This document shows positions 1 to 56,956 of a stretch of 64,000 nucleotides of DNA, one piece after another. The stretch is from Capsaspora owczarzaki ATCC 30864 (lineage: Eukaryota; Opisthokonta; Filasterea). Each line of letters starts with the position of its first letter. Position 1 is the stretch's first letter. The position numbers and the translations under genes are program-made. Location: NCBI RefSeq assembly GCF_000151315.2, contig NW_011887305.1, positions 658,826-722,825 on the forward strand. Direction: 5' to 3'. The notes under the pieces are model-generated. The model did not search any database, was not told the DNA's origin, and saw nothing but the letters and a program-made list of their open reading frames with translations.

Positions 1-311
1 CTGCCACAATACAATCACCTTTTCACTGTGATTGTGAGAATTCAAAAAAGGAGGAGGAAGAAGAAGAAGAACAAGACGATTATGATAATTCTGTGCCACT
101 CTGCTCGCTCAGCGCTCAATGCACTTCATATCTAACGATTCCTCCCTTTGCGTGTCACAGATAATGATGAAGAAAGCAAAAAACAAATTTCATCGAGAGA
201 TCTGGTTTGAGTCCAATTGCGTCGGGATCTAGATCCAGTCGTCATACATTTGTTTTTTGTTTTTTGACAGACGTGTCAAATTCATCAAGCAGGCCTCGTT
301 CTCAAAGCAGT

Positions 312-341
<30 letters not shown>
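1..341. other. 5' flank of the FKRP-like gene
   Basis: I see no separate gene here. The stretch is A/G-rich (GAA-type repeats near 50-75) and ends in an AGC trinucleotide run at about 308-341, directly before the preferred start codon at 342. An in-frame ATG at 207 would add 45 residues ending in a serine run, so the AGC repeat is either the 5' UTR or a serine-rich N-terminal extension. Confidence 0.5.
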
Positions 342-343
<2 letters not shown>

Positions 344-10685: not shown

Positions 10686-13509
10686 TTATTCCCACTCGGT
10701 GGTGCCTGGTGGCTTGGAGGTAAGATCGTACACGACGCGCGAAATGTTGGGAGTCGCGGCGAGAACCTCGGCCACCATCTTGGACAGCACGTCTTCGGGA
10801 ATGTCGCGACCGGGTACCGCTGGAACGCCAGTCATAAAGTCGTTGGTGATGAACGTGCGGATGGCGATTGAGCGTCGGGGCGAGATGACGGCGCCTTCCT
10901 CTGATGCGAGTCCAGGCGAGCCCTTGCCGTCCTCAAAGTCCACGGGGAAGACAATCACAGGGACTTGGCTCAAGGCGGTCACCAAGTTGGCCTCGAGCAG
11001 ATGGCGGTTGACAACAGCATCAGCTGCGCGAAGCTGGTCGACAACGTCGGGTGTGAGGTGGGTCACCGAGATGCGGCGAATGGGCCTGTCCACAGGCTCG
11101 CCAAACACGTACACGACACGGTTGATGTTGTGGCACACCTTGGGAATGAGCTTGGCAAATGCAAAGAGCTTCTTCCAGTCGGCAGCACCCGACGCAGGCT
11201 TGGCCAGCGAGAGCGCGGCAATGTAGCTGTACGTGCGACCATCGCCTTGGACGCCGACCGTCATGACGGGCAGCAGCGTGACGGAGAGGCCGTGATCCTC
11301 GTGAAGCCAGGATGGATCGCCGTTGATGGAGCTGACAATGCGGTCGCGCACTGCCTGGCGGTCTGACGAGATGGCGCGAGTGTTGACAATGTCCTTCAAC
11401 AGTTGGTTGGTGGCGTCAAACGAGGCATCAATAAACGGCTTTTCCGTGCACAAAATGCGCACCACAAGGCCAGGCCCGGGGAAGGGCTGTCGCATCACCA
11501 TTTCGGTGGGCAGACCGAGCTTTTTGCCAAGCTCGCGCACCTCGTCCTTGTGGTAGTCCTTGAGCGGCTCAATCACACGACCAAGCTTGCGCAACTCGCG
11601 CACGAGCTCGGTGTCGTTGTGGTGTGTCTTGATGGCGTCAGCGGCACTCGAGGCGAGCGACGAAGCGCTCTCGATGAGATCCGGCCTCAAGGTGCCCTGG
11701 GCGAGATAGACGTCTTCTGGGCGGAGGTTGAGGTCCTTGACGGCTGTTTCAGCGACTCTGTGTAGTACAAAAGCAGCCCCACGCGAAGATGCATGGAAAA
11801 TATTAGCCCGATGAGCAGACACCCGACACTGCCAAAAAAAAAAAAAAAAAAAAAAAAAACTTTGGACGAGCAACAACACAACGCACCGCATGAACGTGTC
11901 GCCGACAATCTTGCGCTTCTCCTCGGGAGCAGTGGTCTCCTTGAGTTTCTTGGTCTCGTACTTGGTGACGCGATCGCGGGCAGTGATGGTGGTGGTGGCA
12001 TTGTAGAAGGTCTCGGAAGCATCGACCACACGCAGGTTGAGGCCGAGGTGGCCGAGCGAGACAGAGACGAGCTTGGACTCGTCTTGGCGCATAAAACCAT
12101 TGTCAATGTGCAGAGCAACGACTCGGTCGGGGTTGATGGCCTTGGTGAGCAGCGCAGCGCAGACGGACGAGTCGACGCCGCCCGAAACAAGCACGAGCAC
12201 CTTCTTGTCGCCGACGAGCGACTGGATTTCCTTGATGCAGACATCCTCGCGGTCCTCGATCGTGTACGAGCCAGTGCAGCCGGCGCACTCGAACAAAAAG
12301 TTGCGAATCATCTCCTTGCCGTTGGTGCTGAGTTCGACTTCGGGGTGGAACTGGACGCCATAGATGCGACGCTTGGGGTCTTCGATGGCCGACACGAGCA
12401 CGCCCGAGCGCGCAGAGACACGGAAGCCCGGCGCCACCTGATCGATTGAATCTCCATGGGTCAGCAGGACCTGCTGCTCGCGAGCGAGGTTCTTGAACAA
12501 GGGCGAGTCCGTCTCGACGAGAATCTCGTCCTGACCGTCCTCGCGCTGCTCCTTCCGCACGACGGTGCCGCCAAAGTGCAGGTTGCAGAGCTGCATGCCG
12601 TAGCAGATGCCCAAGAGCGGGATGCCAATGTCCAGCAGCGCGGGATCGTACTTTGGTGCGTTCTCCGAGTACACTGAGCTTGGTCCACCCGAGATGATGA
12701 CAGCTCTGCATGCAGTCGCAGTCAACAATTCGAAATCAGAGACCAAAGAGAGTCAAGTTTAGTCACTGGTATAGAAGGGGAGGGGTGGGGGAAGGCGGAA
12801 AGGGGTTTCGCTGTGGACCCATTCAAGGAGAGGTACTTCATTCAACACTCGATAAGACTCAGGGCGTCGCTCGTTGTCCTGGGAATTGGCTGAAAGTGTT
12901 GACGGTTGATGTGATGAGATAGTGAATGAGAGAGAGAGAGGGAAGGGGGAAGGGAGAGAGCGAAGGGGGGGGGGGCGAACACTTCAATAGAGTCAGTGGC
13001 GGAGGACACACGAGGCGCCCACATGAGGACTTGGATCGTGCGTTGACTGCAAACCAGCACAAGCTTCAGAAACGGAGGACGAACAAAGTGACAACGGAAG
13101 GGGGTGTTTTTTAAGAAGGAGAGGATGGAGAGGACGAAGGAGCAAAGTAGGGGAGGAGCGAGCAAAGTAGGGGAGCAGAAATGGGGCCACAGCAGCAAAC
13201 CCCGACAGACTGAGGCGAGGCAAAATGCTGGGGATAGTGTGCACTTGATGAGGATGATGATGAGGATGATGATGATGAGGATGATGATGACGAGGATGAT
13301 GATGGCAGTGAGACGGTGGCTGGGTGCGTCCCGTACTTGTAGTTGCCGGCCTTGAGGACGTCGATCGGTGTGTTGAGCGGGAGCAGCTCGGTGGCGACGT
13401 TGAGCTCGCGGACCTTGCGATCAATCACCTTGCCATACTGGGCACCGGCATCGAGAATGACAACCACCTCGGACGGCGGTGCGACAGCGGCGTGCGGATG
13501 GTGCGACAT
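10686..13509 (-). CDS. GMPS: GMP synthase (glutamine-hydrolysing)
   Basis: Three exons on the minus strand: 13337-13509, 11887-12705, 10686-11757; about 687 aa (human 693). Converts XMP to GMP using glutamine and ATP, the last step of guanylate synthesis, in the cytosol. N-terminal class I glutamine amidotransferase: VVILDAGAQYGKVI, ISGGPSSVY, nucleophile in LLGICYGMQL, catalytic His/Glu in VQFHPEVE. ATP pyrophosphatase: P-loop VLVSGGVDSSV, then HIDNGFMR, LAQGTLRPDLIES, KTHHNDTEL and PGPGLVVRI. The C-terminal dimerisation domain ends in the diagnostic SKPPGTTEWE. Intron 1 (631 nt) carries GAT repeats at about 13249-13308; intron 2 (129 nt) carries a run of about 24 sense-strand T at 11837-11860. 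An insert in the dimerisation part matches the eukaryotic (human-type) GMPS rather than bacterial GuaA. Confidence 0.96.
13249..13308. repeat. GAT/GAG trinucleotide repeat in GMPS intron 1
   Basis: Imperfect GAT-rich trinucleotide run (ATC-rich on the sense strand of GMPS), lying inside the first intron close to its 5' splice site. Confidence 0.7.
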
Positions 13510-37724: not shown

Positions 37725-38539
37725 AACGTTATCAATAGACATTTTTTTTCACGCCGGCGTCATTTCCTGTCGTCGTATCGTCCCAGCGACTTTGGCGACA
37801 TTTTTCGTAGTCGGTGCTTGAATGCGCGTCATGGAGCATCAGTGTCCCTTCCCATGAAAGGAACTGGTGACGACAATCGTGCAGCGCCACGCCTGTGTAA
37901 ATGACGCCGCAAAATCTGTCGCTCATTGTCGCTCATTGTCGCTCATTGCCGCTTCGTCCAGCTCGTCCAGCTGAAGAGCGGGGGTCTGGGCATTGTGAAG
38001 TTGTTTGGGCAGCATTTCCGCAAATGAATGTCTCAGTCATTTCAATTTTGTACCTGATTTTTCGCGCGCGAAAGTTGGTTGGAGTTCTGCAAGCCACCAA
38101 GATTTGTCTGTTTTCTCGCTTGTTGAAATGGTATCTGGAGCATGGGTTGATCATCACGGAAGTGTACTCTGCTACACCTGCGACTCCGAATGCGATTTTT
38201 GGTGAATTCGCGGACTATGTGTCGGATTATCGTCGACAAAGTGACAAGAATCCTGCCGACAAGGTCAGCGCGGATAAAGCCAACAATGATGGTTGCTCAA
38301 CCTTCGGACGAACCGTGATGGATAAATCGAGACATACAGTATACTGACTGGTGGGGTTTGTTGAATTTGTGCAACATCGAAAACCAGCTGTTACAACTGT
38401 CTATGAGTGAGCGATCATCCAACTGCATCCCCATATGAATCGTCATTTATCACAACCTTCAAGTTCTTTCTTAGTCAATCCGATCTGATACCCAGTCGTC
38501 TTCCGCTTTTGCCTACCGTCTCTGCTGCGAATCCAAACC
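37725..38539. other. Spacer containing a viral-type DNA polymerase fossil
   Basis: Between EXOSC3 and the folate synthase gene. It holds three copies of a TCGCTCATTG decamer (about 37919-37948), the polymerase-like fragment (38045-38347) described separately, and the presumed promoter of the next gene. Confidence 0.5.
38045..38347 (+). mobile_element. Fragment of a protein-primed-type family B DNA polymerase (DNA_pol_B_2), element remnant
   Basis: An open frame from about 37901 to a stop at 38345-38347; its last 90 or so codons resemble the palm/motif B part of DNA_pol_B_2 polymerases, found in Polintons/Mavericks, adintoviruses and related elements and in linear plasmids. Evidence: LLKWYLEHGLIITEVY, FADYVSDYRRQSDKNPADK and FGRTVMDKSRHT, which follow the order and spacing of the family. 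The usual K-x3-N-S-x-Y-G motif B is degraded here (NDGCSTFGRT). No upstream metal-binding DxxSLYPS motif, no other element gene and no terminal repeats are seen nearby, so this is a dead fragment. The family is recognised from memory of its motifs, and a search is needed to fix the source. Confidence 0.6.
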
Positions 38540-40708
38540 ATGCTGCGCTGCTGTGCTGCCATTGTGGCGCGCCCAGCATTGCGTCAGCACGCACAACGCG
38601 ACTTGCACCATCCGACACTGAGTGCCACTCTGCACAGCGACGACGCGCCAACGCACCGCCCGTCCACGCGGATGCTGAGCTCGCGGCTGCTGCTTCCCGC
38701 CAAGAAGCTGCTGGTTCCCGCCAAGAAGCCGCTCAGCCGGCAGTCGACCGCCACCGCCGCGACGCCGCAGCGCGCGTTCTCATCGCATCACCAAGCCACT
38801 GAGCACTTTCCGACAAGACCGGGCGGTCTGCTGGGCGGAGAGCCGCTCGCTCGTTCCGCGACCTCTGCCTCGTCGTCGTCCACATTGTCGCCTTTTTACA
38901 ATGGCTCTGCACAAATGCTTCCGACCAGGGTCCAATCTCATGCAATGTTCAACACGTTCGTGCAAGCACCAAGTCCGATCTACGCCACTCCGGCGCGACA
39001 TGCGTCGTCCAAGCCTGAAATTTCAATGTCTGGCAAGGCGTACGCGCGGTTGGTGCGATTTGTCCAAGAGCACGCAGACCGCCTGCCATTGCTACTGCCG
39101 CCAGTCATTCATGTAGCAGGCACAAACGGAAAGGGCATGGTGTGTGCCATGACCGAAAGCACGCTGCGGGTATCCGGGCTGACCACGGGCTTGTTTGTGT
39201 CCCCGCCGCTGGTGCATGACCGGGATTCAATTCGCATCAACAACCGGCCGGTGTCGGAAGAGCTCCTTGAAGAGTCGCGTGCGTGGGTTTTGGCACGGCT
39301 GGAGGATTTCCAAAAGCGCCCCACCCCGTATGCACGCTTCGCCTTCCCCAACGAGAAGGACCGCTTTTTGACCGAGTTTGAGGTGCTGACGCTGGTTGCC
39401 TTCCGCATATTCATTGCAAGCAAGGTCGATGTGGCAGTGATTGAATGCGGCATGGGTGGCATGCACGATGCGACCAACTTGATCCGGTCAAGTGCCGTTA
39501 GCGTCGTTACCTCGGTCTCACTCGAGCACAGCCAATTTCTTGGGGGCGCCGTGACGCAAATCGCCCAGAACAAGAGTGCCATTGCTCGATCTTTCAAGCC
39601 TACAGTCGTTGGCCCCATGCATGATCTCGAAGTGGTCCGTACGATCGCCACCTCCTTGATATACCAAAGCTCCTGTCCGGTTTGGTCTGAGCCGGCCGAG
39701 CTGGTCTCGCCCGATGCCCACATCACCGCATCTCCTGCCTCCGATGCTGCACGCCAACTCGCACAGTCCAATTCAAAGTCCGAAACACCCAGCACGCGTC
39801 AGTTGTACCGCGCCCGCTACGCTGGGATTGAATTTCAACTGCCCAGTCCCAGCCCAACAACGCTTATTAATGCTGGCATTGCTGTCGATGTGATTCGGTC
39901 GGCCCGCATCTCCCACCCTACATTCTACCACATTCGTGATGAACACATTGCGCAAGGACTGGCGCAGTTTTATTGGCCGGGCCGAATGCAGTGGACTCGG
40001 TTTACGTTCGACTCCTCGTCCTCCTCCTCTTCTTCTTCCTCTTCCTCCTCCTCGACCAAAGCTGATGCAGCCAACACGGCCAAGCAACCCGCGGAAACGA
40101 AGACGAAAACGAAAAAAGAGAGTCTGCCGTCCAATAGCGGCGGGAAAATTGACATGCCAGTCCTCCTTGATGGAGCGCACAACCCGGCCGCGTTTGTTGA
40201 GCTTCGGAGATTTGTCGACGCCGAGCAGCAGGCGTGGGTGGATGCCAATCCCAAGCTCCCGCCTCGGCCTATCGTGTGGATTCTGGCGGTGACGCAGTCA
40301 AAGGACGTGGCAGAGATTGGTCGAGCCTTGCTCGCCGTGCCCGAGAGTGAGGCCGCAGCGGGTCGCAGTCCATCGCCCAAGCCAACACAAAATGAAACGA
40401 TTGTCTGCGTCCCTCATACGCCTCCCAAGTCCATGCCGTGGCTGTCGTGCATCCAGCCAACGGACCTTGCTGAGCAACTCCAGGGGTTTTCCTCACCCAG
40501 GATCAAGGTGCGATCAGAGGCCAGCTTGTTTGCTGCACTTCAGAGCACATACGCAGCCATGACTTCTGAGACCACGGATGGACCAGCACCGCTGGTGGTT
40601 GTGTGTGGTTCGCTGTATCTGGTTCGCACGTTCTACCTCTTGCAGCGCAGCGGCAATTCCAGTCCCGAGTTTTTGGCATCGACCACCGGTGCTGATTATG
40701 TCGAATAG
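38540..40708 (+). CDS. Folylpolyglutamate / dihydrofolate synthase, probably mitochondrial
   Basis: Intronless, 722 aa. Mur-ligase-family enzyme that joins glutamate to folates (or to dihydropteroate) with ATP. Seen: ATP P-loop HVAGTNGKGMV (about residues 190-200), LFVSPPLVHDRDSIRIN, VAVIECGMGGMHDATN with the Mg-binding Glu, SLEHSQFLGG, and the C-terminal ligase signature LLDGAHNPAAF (about 541-551). The first 160 residues are Arg/Ser/Ala-rich with few acidic residues, like a mitochondrial targeting region, followed by a low-complexity spacer. A serine run (about 491-507) and Lys-rich insert separate the two domains. The core fits both FPGS and dihydrofolate synthase, and I cannot decide between them by eye. 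It is much longer than typical members (430-590 aa) because of the leader and the insert. Confidence 0.82.
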   Translation: MLRCCAAIVARPALRQHAQRDLHHPTLSATLHSDDAPTHRPSTRMLSSRLLLPAKKLLVPAKKPLSRQSTATAATPQRAFSSHHQATEHFPTRPGGLLGGEPLARSATSASSSSTLSPFYNGSAQMLPTRVQSHAMFNTFVQAPSPIYATPARHASSKPEISMSGKAYARLVRFVQEHADRLPLLLPPVIHVAGTNGKGMVCAMTESTLRVSGLTTGLFVSPPLVHDRDSIRINNRPVSEELLEESRAWVLARLEDFQKRPTPYARFAFPNEKDRFLTEFEVLTLVAFRIFIASKVDVAVIECGMGGMHDATNLIRSSAVSVVTSVSLEHSQFLGGAVTQIAQNKSAIARSFKPTVVGPMHDLEVVRTIATSLIYQSSCPVWSEPAELVSPDAHITASPASDAARQLAQSNSKSETPSTRQLYRARYAGIEFQLPSPSPTTLINAGIAVDVIRSARISHPTFYHIRDEHIAQGLAQFYWPGRMQWTRFTFDSSSSSSSSSSSSSSTKADAANTAKQPAETKTKTKKESLPSNSGGKIDMPVLLDGAHNPAAFVELRRFVDAEQQAWVDANPKLPPRPIVWILAVTQSKDVAEIGRALLAVPESEAAAGRSPSPKPTQNETIVCVPHTPPKSMPWLSCIQPTDLAEQLQGFSSPRIKVRSEASLFAALQSTYAAMTSETTDGPAPLVVVCGSLYLVRTFYLLQRSGNSSPEFLASTTGADYVE

Positions 40709-41129: not shown

Positions 41130-44100
41130 ATGGTTTTGACGTTTGCAAAGTCGCTTGTGGTACGTCGCTCCCCTTCTCTCTCTTCTCTCCCTCCCTCCCG
41201 CCTCCTCTTCCTCCCTCCCCCTCATTCACTTCCCTCTTCGTTCTGCTCACTCTCCAATCGACCTCGTCTCGTGGTTCTCGTTTTCCACTTTCAATCGTTA
41301 CTTTATTTTTACTTTATTTTTACTTTATTTTTTTTTTTATTCCTTTTGCCGCAATGCAAAAGCGGATCATTTTTTCCCCTTCTTTCCCCTCTTCGTTCAT
41401 TCTCTTCACTTTCCCTTCACTTTCCCTTCACTTTGCTAACGACAACAAATGCGAATCGTCATCAACAAACACGAATGTCTCGTTTGGATTTGTTTGGAGG
41501 ACTCCAGTGTCGAGTGTCGGAGATGGTCTTTCTTTCGTTTTGCGGGTTTCCCCTTCAACAAACAGTTCCCAAGCCGACCCGAAACCCTCAACGCACTCAC
41601 TCACACACACTCTCTCACACTGTCAATCCATTCAAATCCACACATTAACTAACTGGCGCTTGTCATGGTGGTGGTGGTGGTGGGGTCCAGCACAACTTTG
41701 ACAATGTGTGCAAGTACACTGAGGACGGCCTCGCCATGGCCCGCGACGTCGTCTCGTTCATCCGCAAGCGCCAGGCCATCGAGTCCGAGTACGCCAAGGC
41801 ACTCAGTACGTTGGTTCATCCTTTGTTCATCATCGTTGTGCTGTGGTTTGGGGCTCCCTCTCTCCCTCTCCCCACAACGCTTCTCCACCTCTGGTTGTTT
41901 GTTCCTGTTCAAATCTCGCTGCGGTGTTGCTGCACGTCGTTGCGTATGCGGTTCCGGACTTCCCACAATGCACTTCCATTTCGTAATGTGCTCTGAGCCC
42001 GCATGACGCCCCCCCCCCCCTGTGCGAGGGACGCTGAACTGTGTCTTTGTCAGCTCGACCCCATCTTGGTTTACAGTCCAATCTCAACCCTGTTACAACC
42101 AACCATTCAATGCTCACCTATGATTTGGTTTTTTTTTGTACAAATTCAAACACTCTGCTGATGATTAAGGCAAGCTGTGCGTGCAAATGAAGGACACGGT
42201 TCCAGCAGACAAGCGCGTCGCTCTTCAGGGTGGCGAGGAAACGGATTTGTTTGGGTAAAACGAACGAAAACGAAAAAGAACAGAATGAAACCGAGCAACT
42301 ACGAATACTCACCCCTCGAGGGATTCGTGGTGGTCGGTAGGTCTGTTCTCGGCACCTGGTACAGCGTGCTCGAGGAGGCGCACCAGGCAGCGATGGTGCA
42401 GGAGCATCTTGCCGCCGAGCTGGGACACCGAGCGGCAGACCCTTTGCAAGCACGTCTCAAGGATCTCGAGACGCAGCGCAAACAGGTACCGCCGTGATTG
42501 TCTGTTGCTGCTGTAGAGGTGTAGTGATGGATCAGTTTGACGGCGGCACACCTCTGACTTTGCTGCTTTGTGTTTTGAATCGCGACCCAGCTCGTGCAAG
42601 ACGGCCAACGCGATTCAAAGGAGTTGCAAGAATCGTACACTGCGCTCAAGAAGGTCAAGTCGGTCTATGATGGGTTGCGCAAGGAGTCGGACGAAATCGT
42701 GGCCAAGCACGAGGAATCCAAGAACAACCATATGAGCAAGGAAAAGGACGTTTCAAAAGTACGGCATCAGTCCTTTTCAGCGGTCTTTGTCTGGCTGTTG
42801 TCTTGTTGTAGCGGAGCGATTTGGTGCACGTTTTCTGCGACTGATGTTTGTTTCGCCCGGTGCTTTTTTTTTTTTTTTTTTTTTGTTTTGTTTTCAGCTC
42901 AAAGGCAAGGCTGACGCTGCGTTGGAAAAGGCCAACACTGCTCTCAAGCAGTTCAATCAAAAGGAGTCCGAGTGCAAAAAGCAACAAGAAGTGTTTTTCC
43001 AGCATCGAATGCCCGACATTTTGGCGGTATGCGGGGTTTTGTTTTTTTGGTTGCTCTGGTTGCTCTTGGCCGATTCTTCTTTCATCCACATTCGCGGCGG
43101 TTCTTGAATGGCTAATGGTGTCGCCCTTTCCTACAGTTGTGCCAACATGTCGAAGAGGAGCGATGCCGTGCTGTGAGGGACACTTTCGTCACGATGAAAG
43201 ACGTGATTGAGGACCGTTTCCAACGCCTGGCCACCTTGTCCGAGCGGTTTGCCAGGGCTGTTTCAAGCATTGACATCCATGTTGACATGGAAGAGTTCAT
43301 CAGCAACACGGTAAACTTGTCGTTGATTTTGTGTTTGTTTGCAAGTCCCTGAATTGTTCTCATTATTTATTGTTTGTTTGGCTTCCTTTTGTTTTTTGAC
43401 ACTTTCTGCTTCCAGGCTGGAGATCGTAGCGTATCCGTCATGTCACTCCTCTACCCAAGCAAGAAGGGACGCCTCTTTGTGCACAAGCGTGGCGAAGCAG
43501 CCGACCGTTGGCGTCAGCAATTCCTGGTGCTCATGAATGATCAGCAACTCCTCTATCTGTTTGATTCTGAAGATGTAAGCGCCAATTGGGGTCGAAGGCT
43601 TGTTTTATCTTCTCGCCAGAATGGGTTCTCACGCTTGCTTTTGTACTTTTGTTCCTTGGTGGAATAGTCGACCAAACCTCGCTCGATCGTGTCCATTTCC
43701 AGCGGTGATCGCACAGTTCGACCAGTCGACGAGTCCTTGTTTGGCAGACCTAATTGCTTCCAAATCATTTCGAATGACGACACCCTCTACTTCCAGGCCG
43801 AGGACGACAACGAACGTCGGGAGTGGCTCAACAAACTCCTGAACATTTCAATCGGCCAAAAGTTTACGCGACGCGAGCTGGTCTCTCGTCACGTCACCAG
43901 TCTTCATCTCCGTGTCATCGAAGCCAAGAAACTGAGCAAGAGCGGCGATCTCTACTGTCTCGTTCGGTTGGATTCGGAGCTTCAGGCTCGAACCCAAACC
44001 CGAAAGGATACCAACGCCCCATTCTGGAGTGAAGAGTTCTTCTTTGAGTACGTTCTTGTTTTGAACTCCTCCTCCCCCGGGCCACTCACGCACAAACACA

Positions 44101-46476
44101 TACACCAACATTGTTTGCGCGTCGTTTTCACTGTTTTTCTGACTTTTTTGGTCTCTGTATTCACTTGCTCCCCCAAATTATCAGTGAGGTTCCTGCGTCG
44201 GTCGGCAATCTCGAAATTGTCATCATGAATAGCAAGCGCGACTTGGGCAGCGCGTTCGGCTTCAATCCGAAGGACACGGAAGTTGGCGTGGTCAGCGTGC
44301 CGATTTCCTCCCTGTCATCCGATTCAGTTTTTGAAGATTGGATCAACGTCTTTACTGAGGCAAGCAGCATTGGCTTTGAGGCGTCTTTGCGCGCCCGCAT
44401 CAAGTTCTCCGACCAGCTGATCAAGCCGCTCGCATCGTACCAGCCTATGCTCGATCTCCTCGACGAGCCCACGTTCATCACCTCGCTCAGCACCGTGATT
44501 CCTGCAGCAGACCGCGAGAATCTCGCGCGGACGCTCATTCAAATTGCCCATGGAAGCGATCGAGTCCAGCAATTCATCGTCCGTCTCATCAAGGACGAGA
44601 TTGCCTCGACAGACGACCCCAACATTATCTTCCGAGGCAACTCGCTTGCCACCAAGACGATTGATCAGGTGAGTTTCTCCCAGTTCAGACTCGTGTTGCC
44701 TGTTATCGACATACAGTCTCCTCACCATTCATTTGTTTTCCGTTTTTTTTTCTCTGTTGTGCTTGTTCAGTTCATGAAACTCGTGGGCATGAAGTATTTG
44801 CACAATACGTTGTCGTCGGTCATCAAGAGCATCTACGATTCCAAGACTGCCGCGGAGGTACGTACTGCAAAAGGTTTTGGGGGGCTTTTGCCCATAGTGC
44901 TTCGTGGCGAATCTTCATTGTTTTGCGCTTGTATGATCATCATCAGGTTGATCCCACCCGAGTGTCCAACCCGAACGATCTCAAGCAAAACTGGCGTCGT
45001 TTGCTTGTTTTCATGAATCACACCTGGGATGCCATTCTGCACTCGCTTGATAGCTGCCCAATGTACGTTCACAGTCCTCGTCCTGTTGGGATTGGTGTGA
45101 CGTGCACACGGCTGCTTGCTCACACAAATTTTTGGCTTGCGTGAATCAGGGCGTTGCGCGCTGTCTTCCGTGCCATCACCACCTTCACTAACAACAAGTT
45201 TGGGGCTGATTCGGTCAGCCAGTACACCGCTGTCAGGTAATTTGCTTTGCTTTTTTTTCTTGCTTTCATTGTCGTTGCCGTTCCACTCGACAGTTGCGGA
45301 ATGCTGATTGGAGAACGCTTGATCTTGCGAAATAGCGGTTTCTTCTTCTTGCGCTTCATGTGCCCGGCGATTCTCAACCCCAAGCTCTTTGACATGATGC
45401 CGAGTATGTCCTGCTGTTGCTTTGAAAAGTTGGTGACCAAAGCCCCCTTTTGCCAAGCCGAGTGCTGATCTGCTGATCTTGCTCCTCTGCACACCAGCGC
45501 ACCCGGAAGAGCACACTGCTCGCACGTTGACCTTGATTGCCAAGACGCTTCAAAATCTGGGCAACCTCGTCGAGTTTGGCGCCAAAGAGCCATTCATGGT
45601 CGACATGAACGAATTCATTGCGGCAAACCTGGACAAGATGAAGCAGTGCATCACGATGATTTCGGTATGATTTTTTTTTGCCGGGTTTCCTTTTTGAATG
45701 TGTGTGTGTTGGTTCAGTTCTCTCACCGCCTTTCCTGCCCTTTCCCACCGTCTGCTACTTGCATTTATTGTTCGCTTGCTCTTAGCTTGTGCCCAGTGGA
45801 GTCGAGCCGAAGGCCGACCTGGGCTCTGTGGATCTGGCGCGACATGCAGCCGTGCTTCATCACTTCCTCGAAGGCAACTTTGCAGCAGTTGTTAGCACCT
45901 CGCCGTTGTCTGAGGTACGCCAGGACGTCGACTTTTTTTTTTTTTTTTTTTTTTTTTTGCTCCAATTACCACAGCATGCATTGCGAAAGCTCATTCGTGT
46001 ATTTTTTCTTCTGCATTGTGTTGAACACGATTGAACAGGATCCCGATGTTGCACGTAAGCTCAAGATGGCGCTGGAGACCCTCTCGAGCGCTGCTGACTC
46101 GTCGATCAGTTTGGTATGGAAGGATGCGCAATGTCGGCACTTTTTTGCGAAAAAGCACTAAAGCAGCATGCTGACCGCTCTGTGCTGCTCGCTTGCTCAG
46201 AACGAACTGGAAACCAAGGTCACTGCCATTGCCTTGTATGATTACATTGCGCAGCGCGAGGACGAGCTGTCGTTCTCGGAGGGCGATACCATCATTTTGA
46301 TCTCGACCGAGATTGAGGATGCGGAGGGCTGGTGCATTGCACAGCACAATGGCAACACTGGCCTGGTGCCCTTGACTTATGTGTGGATTGATGTAAGCGA
46401 CACTTGCGCTCTCGTCTTGGCTGGTGATTTGTGTGTGTCCAAAACAAGCTCAGAATGCGCATTGCTTTGTGCATTG

Positions 46477-46568
<92 letters not shown>

Positions 46569-47917
46569 TTCAGGATTCAACTTCGTCTGCTGACGGCGCC
46601 AACCCCGCCCAACCCAACTCGGACACCCACCAGTACGATCCAGTTGCCGTTGAGGCCGCTTCGGTGGCAGATCCCATCTACGAATCGATCGACTCGCGTG
46701 CCCCAAGCAAGCCTGCGCCTCGTGCGGTGTCTTCCAGCGCCGAGACCTCCGGCGACAGCGGCCCTTCGCAGGCTGACAAGGAGCGTGCCGAGCGCATGCG
46801 TCAGGTCCAGTTGAAGGCGTATGCCGAGTCACATACCGCGCCACCGCTGCCGCCGTTGAGCAAGTCGATGGCTCCGACGGCGACGACCGCGACAACGACG
46901 ACGACGGCGGCGACGACGACTACCGCGGAAGGCGGATCCATCACTCTCGCATCTGTTGCGGCACTGCTCGAGTCCGATACTGCGTCTCAGCGCGATCGCT
47001 CGAATAGCGGCGGTAAGCCGGCCTTCCCGCCCCCTGCACGCGGCGTCACAACAACGCAGTTCCGACCAAAGCTTGGCTCGGTCAGCGTCAACAACGCCAG
47101 GCCTGCGCAGACAACGGTCAAAGCGCCCCTCGACCCGGCTGCCGTGTACGCTTTGCCCCAAAAGTCTGCCAACACTCCCACGTCTGCCGCCAGCTTGGAA
47201 ATTCAGCGCGAGCGCGAACGATCCGAGCGCGCGGATCAAGAGCGTGCCGAATTGGAAGCCGAGGGTCTCGCGGGTGTGACTGGAAATGGGCGTACACTCC
47301 TTGTCAAGCCCAAAGCCGCTGCGCGATCGTCCGTGAGCAACGCCTCGTCCACGACTTCCTCCTCGCCGACGGCTTCGTCGTCCTCTCCGAGCGGCGCGAG
47401 CCCCTCCCCAGCCTTTGCCCCGCCAATTCCAAACGTGCCAAAGCCGAACCTTGCTGCTTCATCGCAAGCTGGCCCTGCTGCGAGCTCGCTGAGCCGACAG
47501 ACCTCTCTCCCCGTGGAATCAACGCCGCCGACCACGGTCAACCAGCGACGCTCTGTGTTTGGTGCCGCGGCGAATGACAGCAACAGCACGGCAGCACCGC
47601 CCAGCATTGCCGGATTGAAAAAGCCTACTCTCGGGAACGCGAGCGGCCCAACCCCTCCAAGCCAGCTCCCTGCCAAGCCCAGCAACTTGGTCGGCTCTTC
47701 GACAACATCTGCCTCGTCCACTACTGCAGCCAGCACTGCAAAGCCGCCAGCGCTGGTCGCCAAGCCCGCGGCGCTCGTCAACAAGGCCCCGTCCGGTCCT
47801 CCTGATAAGCTTCCGCCAAAGCCCGCTGCCGTTGCAGACAAGTCTCAACCCGCTCCAGGCGACGAATCTGAAAAGCCTGCGTGGTTTAAGGACTTCCAGA
47901 AGAAGGCCGGCAACTAG
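41130..47917 (+). CDS. F-BAR, PH, C2, RasGAP and SH3 multidomain protein
   Basis: Nineteen exons: 41130-41159, 41691-41805, 42170-42254, 42341-42485, 42591-42758, 42898-43026, 43137-43310, 43416-43574, 43668-44047, 44185-44668, 44771-44857, 44947-45062, 45150-45236, 45294-45403, 45498-45664, 45786-45914, 46039-46113, 46201-46392, 46574-47917; about 1391 aa, all phases matching. Order: F-BAR (1-282; TFAKSLV then HNFDNVCKYTEDGLAMARD), PH (about 283-385; KKGRLFVHKRG ... EWLNKLLNI), C2 (about 390-510; LHLRVIEAKKLSKSGDLY), RasGAP (about 540-860; NIIFRGNSLATKTID with the arginine finger and FFLRFMCPAILNP), SH3 (about 886-940; TAIALYDYIAQREDELSF) and a long Pro/Ser-rich tail. PH-C2-RasGAP matches the SynGAP/RASA groups; F-BAR binds curved membrane. 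Expected to turn off Ras at membranes where actin or endocytosis is active (inference). Exon 1 is a 30-nt coding microexon before a 531-nt intron; the start is inferred from F-BAR homology. Confidence 0.88.
46480..46557. repeat. TG dinucleotide microsatellite next to a 3' splice site
   Basis: About 39 uninterrupted TG units in the last intron of the F-BAR/RasGAP gene, followed by CGCGCG, GTTT and the CAG acceptor ending at 46573. The repeat takes the place where a pyrimidine tract is normally found. Confidence 0.95.
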
Positions 47918-48108: not shown

Positions 48109-51100
48109 TCACCACTGAAGTGCTCGCCGGGATTTGAGCGCAGGACGGATGGGTGACCTTGGCGATGTGCGCTGCGGAGAGGGGTCGACATGCAATGCCG
48201 CAGCTGTTGGGTCGTGCTCAGCGAAGGTAGGTCGTGAAACTGCTCCGTTGAACGAGGTTGATGCGACGGCTGCTGAACCATCTGGTTCAGGTGGATTGAT
48301 ATTCGCAGCAGGCCGCCCGACCGCCGCGCTAGGACGCCGTGCAGCAACAGGAGCCCCTGCAAGAAACGAGACTGCAGCCGTGACTGGTGCGGCCGAGGGC
48401 GGAATGGTTGCGTTCACGACCAGGCCAGACGCTCCGATGCCGCTGCCGTCGACAGGCCCCAGTTGGCGAGACAATGTACGAAGCATCTTGACCGGTGTTT
48501 CGAGCGCAATCCTTCCAAGTCCGGCAGCAGCAGCACCACCAGAGGCATCGCGAGCGCCATCGCCTTGATTCTTGACCGGTGTGTCTTGGGCAGTCACCTC
48601 GTCGCCAGAAGCAAGCCGAGGTCGCTTGCCGGGATGCGTTGCATGCGTGCCAGAGGAGGAAGAGGCGGAGTGATCGACTTCGCCAGCATTCCGCTTGAAA
48701 GGTTGGACAGGAGACATTGCGAGGGCGGCGGTGGTGGTTGTGGCGCGACCAACACCCGACCCAGAGGAAGCAGCAGCGACGGGCTGACTCGCTGGTGCAG
48801 TTGCTGTTGCAGCTGCTTGCGTCGGCATGGAGAACACGTACCGCGTCTGAGCTTCGAGTTGCTTGGCTGCCGTCGAGTCCGATGACAGATACTTTGACTT
48901 TGTCCCAAAGCGCGATGCTGGGGCTCGCTGCTGCTTGGAGGATTGCTGGCGGCTTGTGTTGGTCGGAACATCAATCAACGTGGCAGGCCCGCGGGAAATG
49001 ACACGATTAGGTTTGGGTGTGGCGGATTTAGAAGCGACAAGCCCTGTTGCTGCTGCTGCCGCTGCCGCTGCTGCTGCTGCTGCCTTGGAGGAAGAGCCCG
49101 CCACCGCTGCTGGAAGAGTGAACTTTGGAACAGTAGTAGTAGTTGACGCGCCGACCACAGTCGCGGTGGCTGACGTGATGGTTGCGGACGTGGGTAGCAT
49201 GGCCATCTCGGGCGCACCAACAATCTGAATCGCAGTGGCGGCCACGTCCATAGGTGCGGTGGGCGACGGTGCTGCAGCCGCTGGAGAAGGCGCCTCGTCG
49301 ACTTCTGGTGCAATGAGGGCAGGAGGAATGATCAGCTCGTACGCATCAAACAAGCCACGAAGCGTGATGGGGTAGACGAGGAGATGACGCGCAACCAAAC
49401 ACGATTCGAGAAAGCGCGCCAGGCCGCCCCGCTCGCGGGACAACAAGATCGACAGCGACGCCAGGCTCTTCTCGAGCGGTATCAGCTCTGTTTGAGGAAT
49501 TGGATCCGGCAGCGTGTTGACACGGCAGAGCTCAAAGCGAGCCACGATATCCGCTTGAATGCTGCGAAAGAGGGCGCAAGCAGTTTCACAAACGCAAGCA
49601 GTTTCACAAGTCAGAAATCAGAAACCAGCAACTCCACAACAAGTCAAGCAAAGACGCACAAACCAAAAAACCAACAAAAAAAGCACACGGATGCTTACTT
49701 GCGTCGCTTGGAATCAGGCGTGGCAACCGAAACCATCTGAGTCAGGTACGCCTGTAGCAGTGCCGCTCCGCCGTGTGCATTTTCAACGGCTGCCGGCAAA
49801 GCGGAAAGCGCAAAATCAACAACGGGAACTTCGCGCGTGGCTCGTGTCACGAGTTGCACCAAGTCGCGGGTCGAAGTGGCTGCCGAAATCAACGGCGCTA
49901 AAGCCGACCAGCCAGTCGGAGCACGAAACGGCGAGCTACGCATGCGAATGGGCGACGATGCTGGCTTTCGAGGTGTCGAGGAAGGTTGACTCGAGGAAGC
50001 ATGGTCTGCAGCAAGCATCGACCGCAAACCCAGCGGCTTGGTCGAGTTAAGCTTGACTGTGCTCTCGTGATACTCGAGCAGCGAAATTTCGGCGTACTTT
50101 CGCATCATCAAGGATGGCTGTCGAATGAGATCTCGATGAGGCCGGTCGCCAGCATCACTCTGGCCACGATGGTGACTTGCCGCGATGGATTGCAGCCAGG
50201 CAAGACTGGTTGCCGGAATGGATGCGCCTGAAAACGGATACCACGGTTCAAGACACAGTGACTGAAAGACGGGCGGGTCGTTGCCCATTTCCGCTGTAGA
50301 ACAGGTAGTTACCGTACCGTCGCCGTCGTCGGGGCGGGCATCAACTGCGGCGGATGTCTGTGTGTGTATCGGGTGCAGTGCCTTGAAATACTCGAGATCT
50401 TTGAGAGCAAGCAGTGCGTTCAATCGCATCGAGAATGGCAAAGCAGGCTGCGGCCCACCGAGCAGAATGGCGGACGGGAGAATCGCACCGTGCGTCGTTC
50501 GGCAGAGGTGCTGCAACGAATGTCGAGCAGGAGCAGAAACAAACCCGAGGCCCTGGTGGTGCAGACAACATCAATTCACACAAGAACGAAGAGTCGACGA
50601 GTGGGTTTAGTTGAGTGATTTGCGACAACCACACCAACAACCAAAAAGCGAGAGAGACAAAAAAAACCACCGGCAACTACTGACCGAGTTCACTGAGGCC
50701 CGCACATCAACCCAAAACAGCGCAAGGCACTGCTCCTTCCATTTTTGTGCAATTTGCGACAGTGCCAAGTCAGCCTTGACGGAGGCGTTGATTGACGCCA
50801 AGTACGGCGCTTGGGTAGACTTGAGCGCCTCCGCGGTAGTGGGCACAAACAGCTCATCCATGGGCGAAGGCATGTCCAACGCGTCGCCCATCTCGTGGAG
50901 GGAGGAAGGACACGGACGGAGCAACAGGACGACATTGCGCGCCGATTCGAGCGCGTTGAACGGCCGCTGCCACAACTTGGTCGCAGTCACGGGAGCGGGT
51001 CCAGACTTTACAGGCGATTCCAAATGTTGGGGGTTCCATTGGAAGTCGCTCAACACCTCCTTCAGGGCGGTCGCAACGCAGCGAAGCGCGGAAGCGGAGG

Positions 51101-52856
51101 CCGGGGTGACCTCGCTGTAGTCGGAACGAGAGTATGCGGATGTTGTCGGGTTTGGAGTGTTTGAACGCGCCGTAGCAGCGCTCCGTCGGCCTCCTGTCAA
51201 ACTCCTGGTTCGGCCCAGCTCGACGCCACCACCACCTCCAGCAGCCTGAGCACCAAAGGCAATGCCGCCGCTGGAAGCATTTCCATCAGTCACAGGAGTC
51301 AGCGGCACGTGATGTTGAGCTGATTCAGTTTGAATACTTGCAGTTTTTCCACTGCTGGAGGTGGCCGGTTGTGCTAGTAAGAATGCCAGCGTCGCGCTGT
51401 GCTGGGAGGACGTTCGCAACAACGAGAGTGACAGCGCCATCTGCTCGCGCAGTTCGGAAGCCACCTCGCTGATGCTGGTGCTCGAGAGCTCATTAAATAC
51501 GTGGCGGTCGAGGTTGGCCAAGTCCGACCGACTGCTGTTGAAGAATTTGACGCCCCAGAGAAATGGACGCGAGTTTGAGGCGGAGTGCGCCTTGGCCGAA
51601 TACGAAAAGGTGCTGGTCTTGGGTGCCGAGCTGGTAGGTGCACTCAAGCTCGCGACATGGATGGCATTCGCGTGGAGATGGACGAGCGTTTTGACAATCA
51701 CGGCTTCGATTAACGAGCAATAGTCGGCAGCCCAGGTCGGGAGGGTTTTGGGGGTGACAGATTCAAGGGTAGCGACCATGTCAAGCGTCGATGATACGTA
51801 CGCACGCATATCGGCCCGAGTGAGGTTGGATGCTGGTAGAGGTAGGGTTGACCCGCCCAGCAAGTCGACTCGCACATCCAAACCAGTCTCGCTTAAAGAC
51901 CCAGGAATCGACGAGGTCGACAAGTGCCTCGCACGCAGCATGTCGCCGTACGTTGGTTTTGGCTCGTTTGGTGACATGGCTACGGTTGGCGAGTCTTGAT
52001 GGTGGGATGACCACTCGTAGCTTGGCGCCGATGCGCGCCGCGACTTTGCTTCGTAGCTGGCCGACTGGGCAAAACCAGCCTCGCCGTGAGCAAGCCGACC
52101 ACGTCCAGTGACGATTCGAGGAGACCGCGGCAGCGTACCGACCGGCTGGGCCGAGGACTGCTTGTCTGCTGCTGCGACACGTTCAAAGACAGACTCGGAC
52201 GCATCCCAGCCAGTCTCGTCCTCGTAGGCGCCACGCCGATTGCGAGGCCGGTTCAAGCCAGACGCTCGCATGGCCTGCTTGCTGGATACCAACGGATCAC
52301 GATTGGGAGCACTGGCTTGCGCCGATGCTCGCGGACTGCGACGCGGCGAGTGTTTCAGCAAGAGCAGACTTCCATCCGACCCAACATCGTCCGAGTCGTC
52401 CGTCTGTCCCAGTGTTGTCTGTCCTTCTCTCGATCGATGATGCTCGTGGCGATGGTTCTGATGGTGGCTGGATGTCTCATCCGGCTCCACGTCCACGTCG
52501 AGTATCGAGCTGGCGCTTGGACGATCAGAACCATGAGCAGCAGCGGACGCAGCAGCCCAGTGGTGGTTCCGATGGGTTTCAGCCACATCGTGTGTGACAG
52601 TTGCAGTCCTCGCGTCTTGATGGAGCTTGTCTTGGGCAAGCAGCGGGCGCGCGTTGAAAATGGCGGGAAACGGTCCTGCTTGAGACGCGAGCGAGTCTTC
52701 GCCGCCGCCGCCTTCGCCGCCGTGCTGTGCATCGACCTGGACAACGGAGACTGAACCTGTCTTGGGCACGCTGCCGTAGCGATGCGGCGTCGTGGCGAGC
52801 GCGGCTGCGACCGGCGACGTGTCGATCAGCAGCACAACCCGCTGCGTCTTCCACAT
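48109..52856 (-). CDS. Treslin/TICRR-like DNA replication initiation factor
   Basis: Three exons on the minus strand: 50685-52856, 49699-50510, 48109-49561; about 1478 aa with matching phases. Treslin (Sld3 relative) helps load CDC45 at origins after CDK phosphorylation. Similarities seen: N terminus RVVLLIDTS (Treslin begins with a like strand), NVVLLLRPCPSSLHEMGDAL plus CLALFWVDVRAS near residues 640-720, THGAILPSA at the start of exon 2, and in exon 3 ADIVARFELCRVN and YPITLRGLFDAYELIIPPAL, which recall the Sld3-Treslin domain. Between the N-terminal strand and the rest of the first domain lies a long disordered Ser/His/Asp-rich insert (about residues 40-420). The C-terminal 350 residues are disordered, with Ala runs and Ser-Pro/Thr-Pro sites that could be CDK targets. 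The match is scattered and from memory, so the assignment is moderate. Confidence 0.6.
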
Positions 52857-53204
52857 TGCGCAAACTGAGCGAGCCGCGAGCTGAACAGCTCAGGTTGACA
52901 GGTTGCAATGCAACAAGACGTTAAAGAAGCAAAAAGTGAGTGGATCAAGGCTTGAGTTTGAAGGAATAATAATAATAAAATAAAAAACTACTGCACACAG
53001 AGTTTTGAACAAACTCAAGCAAGGGCTTTGTCTGAGAATACTGGAATCGGGTGTTGATCTCCAGCTGGATTGAACGAATTCGGTTGCAATACAAAGGTAG
53101 ATTCACAAGAAGAAAAGGGGAGGATGATTCACACAAGAAGAACAGCACAGCACAACACAACGCAGAAATACACACCAGCGCAACATCGTGCACAGCGCAC
53201 TCTG
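52857..53204. other. Spacer between the Treslin-like and formin genes
   Basis: About 350 bp; promoter of the Treslin-like gene and 3' flank of the formin gene, both minus strand. It has an AT-rich AATAAT stretch at about 52963-52985 that could supply the formin poly(A) signal. No gene. Confidence 0.45.
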
Positions 53205-56200
53205 TTAGACGTTGGCACCAAGAGCTTCGTACCAGTCGCGGGCGTCAGCTTCAGTGTCTGCGCGGAGCTGCCATTGGCGCTCTGGCGTTTCTATGAAAAG
53301 CATCTTGCCGTTTTTGGGATCGATGCTGAGCGGACAACCCTTGACGTGGACGCTACCGACCGCCTTGCCGTCACGCTTCTTGAAATAGTGCATGTAGCCG
53401 TCCTGCAGCTCAAACCAGCGGCGATCCCACTTTGGACGAATGTGCTTGCCACCCGATAGCTTTTCCAGGTAGCCCATCATCGGTCGATCACGCTTCTTGA
53501 ACGTGTTGGCAGCGAATGGCGAGGCGGGTGCTGCCGTGCTGGTCGAGGCAGGGTTGTTGTTCGGGTTGTTCTGCTGATGAATGAGAAAATCGAGGGGGGG
53601 GGGAAACAAACAAAGCGTACGAGCAATTGCACGGTGAAAAAGGAATGCCGCCAAAACAAAACAAACCCCCAAAGCACATCGCTTACATTCAGAATACTGT
53701 TACGGTTGCTTGACGGAATGGTCGACTGCGAGGAGTCTGTGGCTGCCGAACTTCGCTGCAGAGATTTACAAAAAAAAAAATACGGACGAATCAGGACGCT
53801 GCAGGCATCCCTCCAGTTCTTCAACAGTAGACTGACCAAAACACAAAACCATACCTGCGATGAATTTCGGGCCCATTCTGGAGTTTCGCGTTCCTTGGTC
53901 GACTGAGGTGACTGTGCTTGCGTCGGCATGATGGAAGCGCGGTTTTTGGCCTTTTCGGCAGCCAGATCGCGCCCAGTTCGAGCCTCGAGCGCAGTGGTAA
54001 AGCGCGTTGCAAAGTAGTTGATGGTGCTAAAGACCTCTTCGCTGTCCGTCGTGTTGGTCTCTCCGAACTTGACCAGCACTTCTTTAAACAGGCGGTTCAT
54101 CTGAACGCATTCTGCTGAAAGAGTCTCGAGCTTGGTTTCATGGAATTCGAGGAAGCTCTGTGCACACAAAGGCGAAATCAAATCAGGACCAAGAATGATC
54201 ACCGCACCGCATGCAACAAATCGCCCCCCCCCCCGCTATAAATGATGAACGCACAAGCAAATCCGTCTGGAACTTGCGCTCAAATGCAGTGGAGGTATCT
54301 GTAATCTTGAGGGCATCCGCATTGCGGCGAATCTTCTCGAGATCTTTCTTGAGCAGCTCGCCTTCCGCAGAGATGCCCTTGACGGAGACTGTTGAAGAAG
54401 AATGAGGCTTCGAAAAGACGTGTTCTCGGCAGCACCCCCCGCCTCCCCTTCCCTTCTCCCTTCTCCCTTCTCTTCAAAAAATCCATCTCTTCAGCTCTTA
54501 CGTTGAGCAGCGAGTTGCACACTGGCCAAATTCTTGGTAAATTCGACCAACGCGGGATTCTGCTTTTGGAGCGTCTCGAGCAGGAAATCAACAAGAGTGT
54601 ACTTGCGATCGGCGCCGTGGACCTCGTTGATTTTCATCAGGGTGTTGAGCTTGAAACCGTAGGCGCCACCGCGCGGAGTGGAGCCGTTCAGATAGTTGCC
54701 CATGGCGAGCAAGTACTGCAACACCTCCTCAAACTCCTTGCTGGCCAGCAAGTCCTTGCATGCGGCCAGCGTCATTTGGATTTCGGGCTCCACATCGGCG
54801 AGGCGGTCGGGAAACTCGCGCAGCGTAAAGAGCAAGTCCAAACGAGCATTCAGGTTGGGAATCTCAATCAGCTGCATCAAAAACTGATCCGCAGGAGCCA
54901 GTTCGGCCTTGTTATCCTTGTAGTTTTTGTACGCCTCAATTTCCTCCGGAGTCGGCGCAAAGCGCTTGAAGGCTATAACATGTTCGAGCGGCAGACCGTC
55001 CGTGATCATGCACAGCATCTTTGGCAACTCTGACAAGGAACCCTTGTAGCCACTGAGGAAGATGCCAATGTTTTGGCCACGCTTGCCATCGAGCAGCGTT
55101 TTGACCTCGGGGCGGTCTTTGCGCTTGAGCTTGGTGTCGGCCTTGGCGTCCAGGCCGAACGTCTCTTCAAGCGCCATCTCGTCAAACTTGAGCGCCTCCT
55201 CGTTCACACCCTCCCACACGGTTGTGGCAATCTTCATGGGCGGAACCTTGGTCCAGTGCAACGGCCGCATCTTGGTCGACGGCTTGATGACGCGCTTGGG
55301 TGGCAGTCCGGCATTGTTGCCACCCATACCAGGCGGTGGCGGCGGCGGTGGTGCACCACCAAACCCGCCCATGGGCGGGGGCGGAGGAGGAGGGCCACCA
55401 AAGTCGCCAAAGTCGCCATCGCCACCACCCATCATGCCAGGTGGCGGCGGCGGCGGTCCACCAAATCCGCCAAAACCACCGTCGTTGTTGCTCGAGTCCC
55501 CAAACCCACTCTTGCTACCACCGTGCATGCTGTCTCCTCCAGGTGCGTTGCTGCTCCCTTGGTTGCCACGCCCAAGGCGCCCCATGGCCGACCCCAAAGC
55601 CGAACTGAGACCGCCTCCCGACGACAACGCACCAGAGCCGCCGCCAGAAGCGGAAGTGTTTTTGCCGCCTCTCGCGTTGGATGTCGAGTGGATAAAGTCA
55701 TTGAGCTTGTCTGTCAGTGCAAACACATTCTCGAGCTTTCCGAGCGAGACCTCGTCCTTGCGGGAGGACAATTGCGAGCGGAGGTCGTTCAATTGCTGCT
55801 GCATGGTCATGGTGAGACCGGCAAGCTGCGAGGCAATGCTGCCCGAAAACTCGGAGGCACCTGCCGTCACGGACGATGCCCTGAGCAAGGCGGCGTACCA
55901 CGCGTCGCGCTCTTGCTCGACCGCCGCGATCGGCTTGTCGGTGAGATTGAGCACGCGGAAGCTAAACTGCTTCTTGCTGGTGTGGATGACAAAGCCGTTG
56001 GGCAAGCGCGAAAAGGTGACCGAGCGCAAGTCCAGCGGGACAATGTTGAGCGCGTTCTCGCGATCGTCCATTTTAAAGTAGGCGACTTCGCCCTCGCTGA
56101 TTTTGAGCCAACGCCGGGCCCAGAACATCATCGAGGCCGAGTGGCCACGCTTTTCCACCTCGCCCTCCATAATGACGTTGCGAGCTTGGTTCATGAGATC

Positions 56201-56956
56201 GGCCGTCGAGTAGTTGACCTCGACCCCTTGGGAGCTGGACGGGCCCTCCTCGCCGTCCTCGCCGTCCACAGCAAACGACTGGGACGCCAGGTCGACGCCC
56301 TGCGATGTTTGCTCCGACTGCTTGGTCTTGGTGACAATGTAGTTGATGAGTCGCGAGATGCGAATCTTCTCCTCGATCGAGTCCGCGTCGTACTCTGACG
56401 GCTCGTGGTTGACAAAGTTGATGGTGAATCGGAGGCCATCTTCGCATTCGCAGCTTTCGACTGTTGCAGACAGAAGGGGGAAGGAAGCGCGAAGTGAGTG
56501 GTCGAGGTTATACCAGGAGTGCATTTGGATTTTGGTCTTCATGAAGGTTCATTCGCAGCGTGTGTTCCAATGCCTGATGGACAAACGCAAACCTCGAGCA
56601 TTTGCATTGTCGGTCGATGGCGAAGGAAAGAGAGAGATAGAGAGAGAGAGAAAGAGAGCGTAGAGCGAGGATTTGAGCTACCAGAGCACCACTCCGCAGC
56701 AGCAGCAGCGAGACCCGAAACCCGAAACCCGGACCTGCCCATGAGAATGACGATGATTGCATAAATGCATGGACGGGGGGCGCCAAATGGCAATGGAGAG
56801 CGTGACAAGGGCGGAAAAGAAAGAAACGAGAACAACAAACAAACAAAGAAGAAGAAAAACCGCAGCAATTCGAATTGGCGTTTAAAAACCAGCAATTTCG
56901 ATACGACGAGTTCACTGCGCGTGGTTAAGTTTTGGTAGCTTCAGAGATTCATGGTT

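Follow-up and report, generated by a model that had tools for sequence, protein, structure and literature searches.

Animal RasGAPs are brought to membranes by SH2, PH and C2 domains and by partner proteins, and the F-BAR proteins FBP17/CIP4, srGAP and Rgd1 act through SH3/HR1 or RhoGAP domains and are not known to act through RasGAP. To our knowledge, the one studied protein that joins a BAR-type domain to a RasGAP is RGBARG of Dictyostelium. As described in the accessible portions of its report, RGBARG combines RCC1, RhoGEF, BAR and RasGAP domains and restrains the patch of active Ras at macropinocytic cups (PMC7416115). The starting hypothesis of that study was one of curvature, but the BAR domain proved to give general membrane recruitment: alone, it is present throughout the plasma membrane, binds phosphoinositides with at least two phosphates and shows no enrichment at curvature, and the GTPase-activating protein (GAP) domain also contributes spatial information (PMC7416115). 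Here we describe a gene of Capsaspora owczarzaki, a filasterean opisthokont, whose product carries a predicted F-BAR in front of a PH-C2-RasGAP core. It lies at 41130-47917 on the forward strand of a 64,000-nucleotide stretch of DNA, hereafter the window (C14:658826-722825; the genome has 27,456,641 bases in 29 contigs). Its product resembles RGBARG in having a BAR-type domain (membrane-binding in RGBARG) and a RasGAP (active in RGBARG) in one protein, but RGBARG has a BAR instead of an F-BAR, plus RCC1 and RhoGEF, with no PH or C2 named in the available text (PMC7416115), and the two are likened by description, not by sequence.

The gene is a single open frame over 19 spliced exons encoding 1377 residues, in agreement with an earlier note on this DNA, which had read one continuous gene of 19 in-phase exons. 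The exons are 41130-41159, 41691-41805, 42170-42254, 42341-42485, 42591-42758, 42898-43026, 43137-43310, 43416-43574, 43668-44047, 44185-44668, 44771-44857, 44947-45062, 45150-45236, 45336-45403, 45498-45664, 45786-45914, 46039-46113, 46201-46392 and 46574-47917 (stop included), and all 18 introns have GT-AG boundaries. A deposited Capsaspora owczarzaki protein, P0001 ('hypothetical protein, variant 1'), is an exact suffix of the product, shorter by 25 residues. The missing part (41130..41735) takes in exon 1 (41130-41159) and the exon 2 sequence ahead of the deposited start at Met26 (codon 41736-41738), and it supplies the beginning of the FCH helix, which P0001 therefore lacks. The longer N-terminus is probably right, because in two relatives, P0038 and protein P0002 of the choanoflagellate Salpingoeca rosetta, the match to the window F-BAR starts at residue 3. 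Exon 14 begins at 45336, after intron 13 (45237-45335), and yields TAVSGFFFLRF, as in P0001 and much as in Dictyostelium RasGAPs. Use of an alternative in-frame AG ending at 45293 would insert 14 residues in the RasGAP domain just before GFFFLRF; P0001 and the relatives argue against it. The Pfam-A scan was made on this longer version (1391 residues, exon 14 from 45294, 14 residues more than the final product). In the protein search, a protein from the locus was 98% identical to P0001 over 97%. The observation of the earlier note is real and the gene model is good.

From N- to C-terminus the protein consists of F-BAR, PH, C2, RasGAP, SH3 and a Ser/Thr/Pro-rich tail, the order that had been proposed, and the Pfam-A matches (FCH, PH, C2, RasGAP and SH3_9) all lie above curated cut-offs. 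The F-BAR (residues 2-282, exons 1-7, 41133..43310, forward strand like all features of the gene) has its FCH core at residues 13-95 (E=1.1e-13; 51.7 bits against a cut-off of 27.8). It matches FBP17, the best PDB F-BAR in a whole-protein search, over residues 7-275 with 32 bits, a length that fits the full helical fold of about 280 residues. The profile of the F-BAR RasGAP family scores 102 bits against FBP17 and 84 against CIP4, the closest F-BARs by sequence, which the domain resembles in fold and length. In the predicted model of P0002 the F-BAR region forms long helices, and the F-BARs of the RhoGAPs srGAP2 and Rgd1 are among its fold matches; this fold support comes from P0002 and not from the Capsaspora protein itself. 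The PH domain (about residues 296-399; 43455..43859) has E=5.5e-12, and the C2 (about residues 409-520; 43887..44359, spanning the intron at 44048-44184) has E=1.3e-10 and aligns to the C2-GAP of p120RasGAP (9bz4).

The RasGAP domain (about residues 540-790; 44417..45640; E=2.4e-32, 112.9 bits against a cut-off of 28.3) aligns with p120GAP and SynGAP chains. Its arginine finger is R612 in FRGNSLATK (44633..44635), opposite FRATTLAST of p120GAP, and the arginine of its FLR motif is R726 (45352..45354). Further on, N765 and K772 (45563..45586) align with p120GAP residues that we take to be N942 and K949. All four positions are invariant across the 19 sequences of alignment A2, and their roles are presumably those of their p120GAP counterparts. 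Judged from the alignment, the catalytic residues are intact, as the earlier note had stated for the finger and the FLR motif.

Two groups of known RasGAPs come close to this architecture. p120RasGAP/RASA1 shares the PH-C2-RasGAP core in the same order and the catalytic residues, and is the best PDB match to the Capsaspora protein by sequence and to P0002 by fold. RASA1, however, has SH2-SH3-SH2 before the core and no F-BAR, whereas the Capsaspora protein has no SH2 in the Pfam-A scan and carries its SH3 after the RasGAP. SynGAP, nGAP, RASAL2 and DAB2IP also have a C2-RasGAP with PH upstream, but the rows listed for them bear no FCH and carry PF25321, several of them a C-terminal PF12004 as well. 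In the Capsaspora protein, PF25321 (PH_RASGAP) reaches 23.5 bits against a cut-off of 27 and PF12004 was not found. The same genome encodes P0015/CAOG_06967, with the RASA1 domain set (SH2, SH3, PH, C2 and RasGAP), and the F-BAR RasGAP therefore stands beside RASA1 and does not replace it; another protein, P0037, is named RAS p21 protein activator 3. Across the genome there are at least 8 FCH matches and at least 22 exon-level RasGAP matches, and among these the two lie close together only at this gene. A second F-BAR RasGAP was not found in the Capsaspora genome, where the F-BAR protein search returned this gene's exons in 6 of 6 matches.

Relatives exist well outside the filastereans. Twelve proteins came from the first protein search, including P0002 (FCH, PH, C2 and RasGAP; 33% identity over 91%). 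The RasGAP region as query gave 477 matches, and the distribution counts rest on the best 120 of these. Among the 120, 15 bear an FCH annotation: P0001, proteins of Gaertneriomyces (2), Spizellomyces, Piromyces, Borealophlyctis, Phlyctochytrium (2), Dinochytrium and Rhizophlyctis, the EukProt transcript P0038 and 4 further proteins. Gaertneriomyces belongs to the Chytridiomycota and Piromyces to the Neocallimastigomycota. P0038 is taken as choanoflagellate because it pairs with S. rosetta at 100/99 in a RasGAP-only tree. No animal-named row among the 120 bears FCH, in keeping with the earlier statement that animal RasGAPs of the SynGAP and RASA groups lack an F-BAR. A hidden Markov model (HMM) of the F-BAR, trained on the window F-BAR together with 15 of these proteins, picks out 20 of 128 retrieved proteins; its matches P0017, P0022, P0053 and P0068 are outside the training set and begin inside the domain. 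A search with alignment A1 as query returned only A1's own two members. The chytrid entries named 'Ras GTPase-activating protein 1' (Gaertneriomyces, Borealophlyctis, Dinochytrium, Rhizophlyctis and Phlyctochytrium planicorne) share FCH, C2 and RasGAP with the Capsaspora protein, and PH in all but Dinochytrium (P0043, no PH listed), but they have no SH3 listed and their deposited name is silent on the F-BAR. Another uncommon combination is that of RasGAP with a LIM domain (PF00412), which occurs in P0059 and P0070, one of the two being from Paraphysoderma.

F-BAR, PH, C2 and RasGAP in this order define a subfamily that the Capsaspora protein fits, and the domain matches indicate an old subfamily of a known protein kind, wider than the unicellular holozoans. 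The earlier note had envisaged an early or lineage-specific form of Ras control in unicellular holozoans; the first half of this stands, while the second is contradicted by the FCH-bearing RasGAPs of Chytridiomycota, Neocallimastigomycota and S. rosetta. It had also considered that the architecture might be widespread and already described. It is indeed widespread (chytrids, a neocallimastigomycete and S. rosetta), yet no account of an F-BAR and a RasGAP in one protein was found in the open-access full-text literature, judged mostly by title and start of abstract, and subscription papers may hold one. None is described in the accessible portions of PMC4374526, PMC8146680, PMC8560551, PMC7416115 and PMC12871552. 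As far as we have seen, the subfamily is undescribed.

Exon 18 (46201..46392), a single exon of 64 residues (868-931) with phase 0 at both ends, encodes the SH3 domain (about residues 876-928; SH3_9, E=6.7e-14), and its phases would fit exon shuffling. Of 19 SH3 matches, the 18 others are 33-51% identical, so that a close source was not found. SH3 is listed on no FCH row except P0001, both among the best 120 RasGAP matches and in the first protein search, and a Pfam scan of P0002, P0038, P0014 and P0040 gave no SH3; within this sample, the domain may be peculiar to the Capsaspora lineage. The last exon encodes the tail (residues 932-1377, 446 residues; 46577..47914), with 12.8% Pro, 24.4% Ser+Thr and 12 overlapping PxxP, and with no [RK]xxPxxP and no PxxPx[RK]. 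A long (TG)n repeat (46480-46560) lies in intron 18, beside the SH3 exon.

Because the relatives were found through their RasGAP domain, the likeness of their F-BARs is independent evidence on the origin of the fusion. P0038 and P0002 give the window F-BAR 173 and 152 bits, and the 13 other FCH rows, which form the fungal group, give it between 106 (P0048) and 23 (P0043). Eleven of these 13 lie above the 32 bits of FBP17, and an HMM of the fungal-group F-BARs scores the window at 178 bits; other F-BARs were compared in the PDB and the Capsaspora genome. The F-BAR/PH junction, counted from where the F-BAR ends to a point inside the PH (residues 270-330 of the window protein), measures 60-67 residues in all but two of the 19 aligned members, P0054 (81) and P0053 (86). 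The F-BAR scores and the junction length therefore favour a single fusion before the fungi/holozoan split, probably already present in the common ancestor of both.

The holozoan F-BAR trio was recovered in a RasGAP-only tree (99/95, bootstrap not settled), in a hand-sliced tree whose slice starts were set manually (99/97) and in a PH-C2-RasGAP core tree (99/96). The trees recover a fungal-group clade too, without joining it to the trio. A clade of all F-BAR RasGAPs was not rejected in approximately unbiased (AU) tests, with p-AU of 0.342 in the first AU test, 0.258 in the hand-sliced tree and 0.152 in the core tree. P0013, P0023 and P0034 were unlabelled in the RasGAP-only tree and placed with the F-BAR set in the first AU test. 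The hand-sliced and core trees were made without P0017, P0020, P0022, P0023 and P0034, and label P0013 as F-BAR although that sequence is truncated at the N-terminus and shows no F-BAR; the core tree also omits P0012, P0058, P0047 and P0011. In RASA3-type rows of the hand-sliced tree, the part before the GAP is presumably not a PH.

On balance, we favour reading the protein as a p120/SynGAP-type RasGAP with an FBP17/CIP4-like N-terminal F-BAR, probably stemming from a fusion that preceded the fungi/holozoan split, and acting as a membrane-scaffolded local brake on Ras. The Capsaspora protein would then probably be a scaffolded, dimeric RasGAP. Its F-BAR would dimerise at invaginations or cups, on plasma membrane rich in phosphoinositides, where PH and C2 would supply further membrane contacts and position the GAP; the latter would convert Ras-GTP, perhaps also Rap-GTP, to the GDP form and so limit the active Ras patch in space. 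The added SH3 exon and Pro/Ser-rich tail may recruit actin or endocytic partners. Several observations weigh on the other side. The structure model is that of the S. rosetta relative and has a mean predicted local distance difference test score of 69.7. With 44 K+R and 48 D+E, the overall composition of the window F-BAR is slightly acidic, so that strong bending of membranes is not assured. P0054 (31 bits) and P0043 (23), both among the 13 fungal-group F-BARs, score below the best PDB F-BAR. Finally, none of the three trees recovers all F-BAR RasGAPs as one clade, and in the core tree rival groupings are likewise not rejected.

The strongest competitor, to which we give a chance approaching even, would make the F-BAR a dimerising general anchor to the plasma membrane, blind to curvature, with location set by Ras binding of the GAP and by the lipids of PH and C2. 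This would mirror RGBARG, whose BAR, in the text available, binds the plasma membrane throughout with no curvature enrichment and whose GAP domain informs location (PMC7416115). Given this general recruitment by the RGBARG BAR (PMC7416115), the direct tie to membrane curvature proposed in the earlier note is a possibility. The window F-BAR, for its part, is not basic overall. Yet RGBARG has a BAR, not an F-BAR, in a different architecture. The nearest F-BARs by sequence are moreover those of FBP17 and CIP4, which are tubulating.

That Rap, and not Ras, is the main substrate seems doubtful. In SynGAP-type proteins the C2 supports RapGAP activity, and the core tree sets animal nGAP/RASAL2 rows beside the holozoan F-BAR trio at 92/89, but this branch carries no star, alternative groupings survive the AU tests as well and the best PDB sequence match is p120GAP. 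None of the alternative orders of the F-BAR, RASA1 and nGAP/RASAL2 groups is rejected: p-AU in the core tree is 0.288 for F-BAR with nGAP/RASAL2, 0.114 for RASA1 with nGAP/RASAL2 and 0.161 for F-BAR with RASA1 (0.204 in the first AU test). The SynGAP group is sister to the holozoan trio at 84/84 in the hand-sliced tree, where the group includes P0012, and does not adjoin the trio in the RasGAP-only tree. A link of the F-BAR RasGAPs to animal SynGAP-type proteins is possible. Taking the 92/89 branch as basis, not proof, one may tentatively propose that a membrane-scaffolded F-BAR-PH-C2-RasGAP existed in the ancestor of fungi and animals and that the SynGAP/DAB2IP/RASAL2 group is this gene after loss of the F-BAR at the animal root, a scenario that we consider less likely than not.

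Separate fusions of F-BAR and RasGAP in fungi and holozoans, or movement of the gene between them, would account for the absence of a single clade in the best trees and for the two fungal-group F-BARs that match the window F-BAR no better than FBP17 does. We regard either as improbable: domain order is identical, junction length is similar in 17 of 19 members, most members' F-BARs resemble the window F-BAR more than the best solved F-BAR does, and a single clade is not rejected. A recent fusion specific to Capsaspora or holozoans could appeal to the SH3 confined to P0001 among FCH rows, but chytrid and neocallimastigomycete members exist; a lineage-specific F-BAR fusion is refuted by these FCH-bearing fungal RasGAPs, and we hold it very improbable. 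To the wrong joining of two adjacent genes near 43310, a break that the earlier note had thought worth looking for, we give the least credence of all: no evidence in its favour was found, P0001 and relatives in other phyla cross the exon 7/8 junction (the P0002 alignment spans 91% of the query region and bridges it), the F-BAR/PH spacing is the conserved one, and intron 7 has 105 nucleotides, phase 0 and GT-AG ends, so that P0001 and the homologues reject this reading.

Elsewhere in the window, a frame at 54494-56548 on the reverse strand, about 6.6 kb downstream of the F-BAR gene, encodes a formin FH2 domain (E=1.2e-65), and one at 10689-12752 (reverse) carries GATase and GMP synthase C-terminal domains. 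The frame at 171-1640 (forward) has a fukutin-related protein stem domain (E=9.8e-25), and the one at 50610-52889 (reverse) matches the Treslin N-terminus weakly (E=8.5e-07). A long open frame at 38489-40705 (forward) contains HVAGTNGKG, a motif that we take to be that of folylpolyglutamate synthases; the Pfam scan gave it no family at 1e-4.

The persistence of F-BAR RasGAPs in chytrids, a choanoflagellate and Capsaspora suggests that a built-in membrane scaffold for the spatial control of Ras predates animals, and that it was later dropped or handed to other proteins. If the F-BAR was lost at the animal root, some animal Ras brakes would now borrow from partners a membrane targeting that was once built in. 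The question of how Ras is controlled in space becomes testable in the unicellular relatives of animals, and public annotations that are silent on the F-BAR can be corrected.

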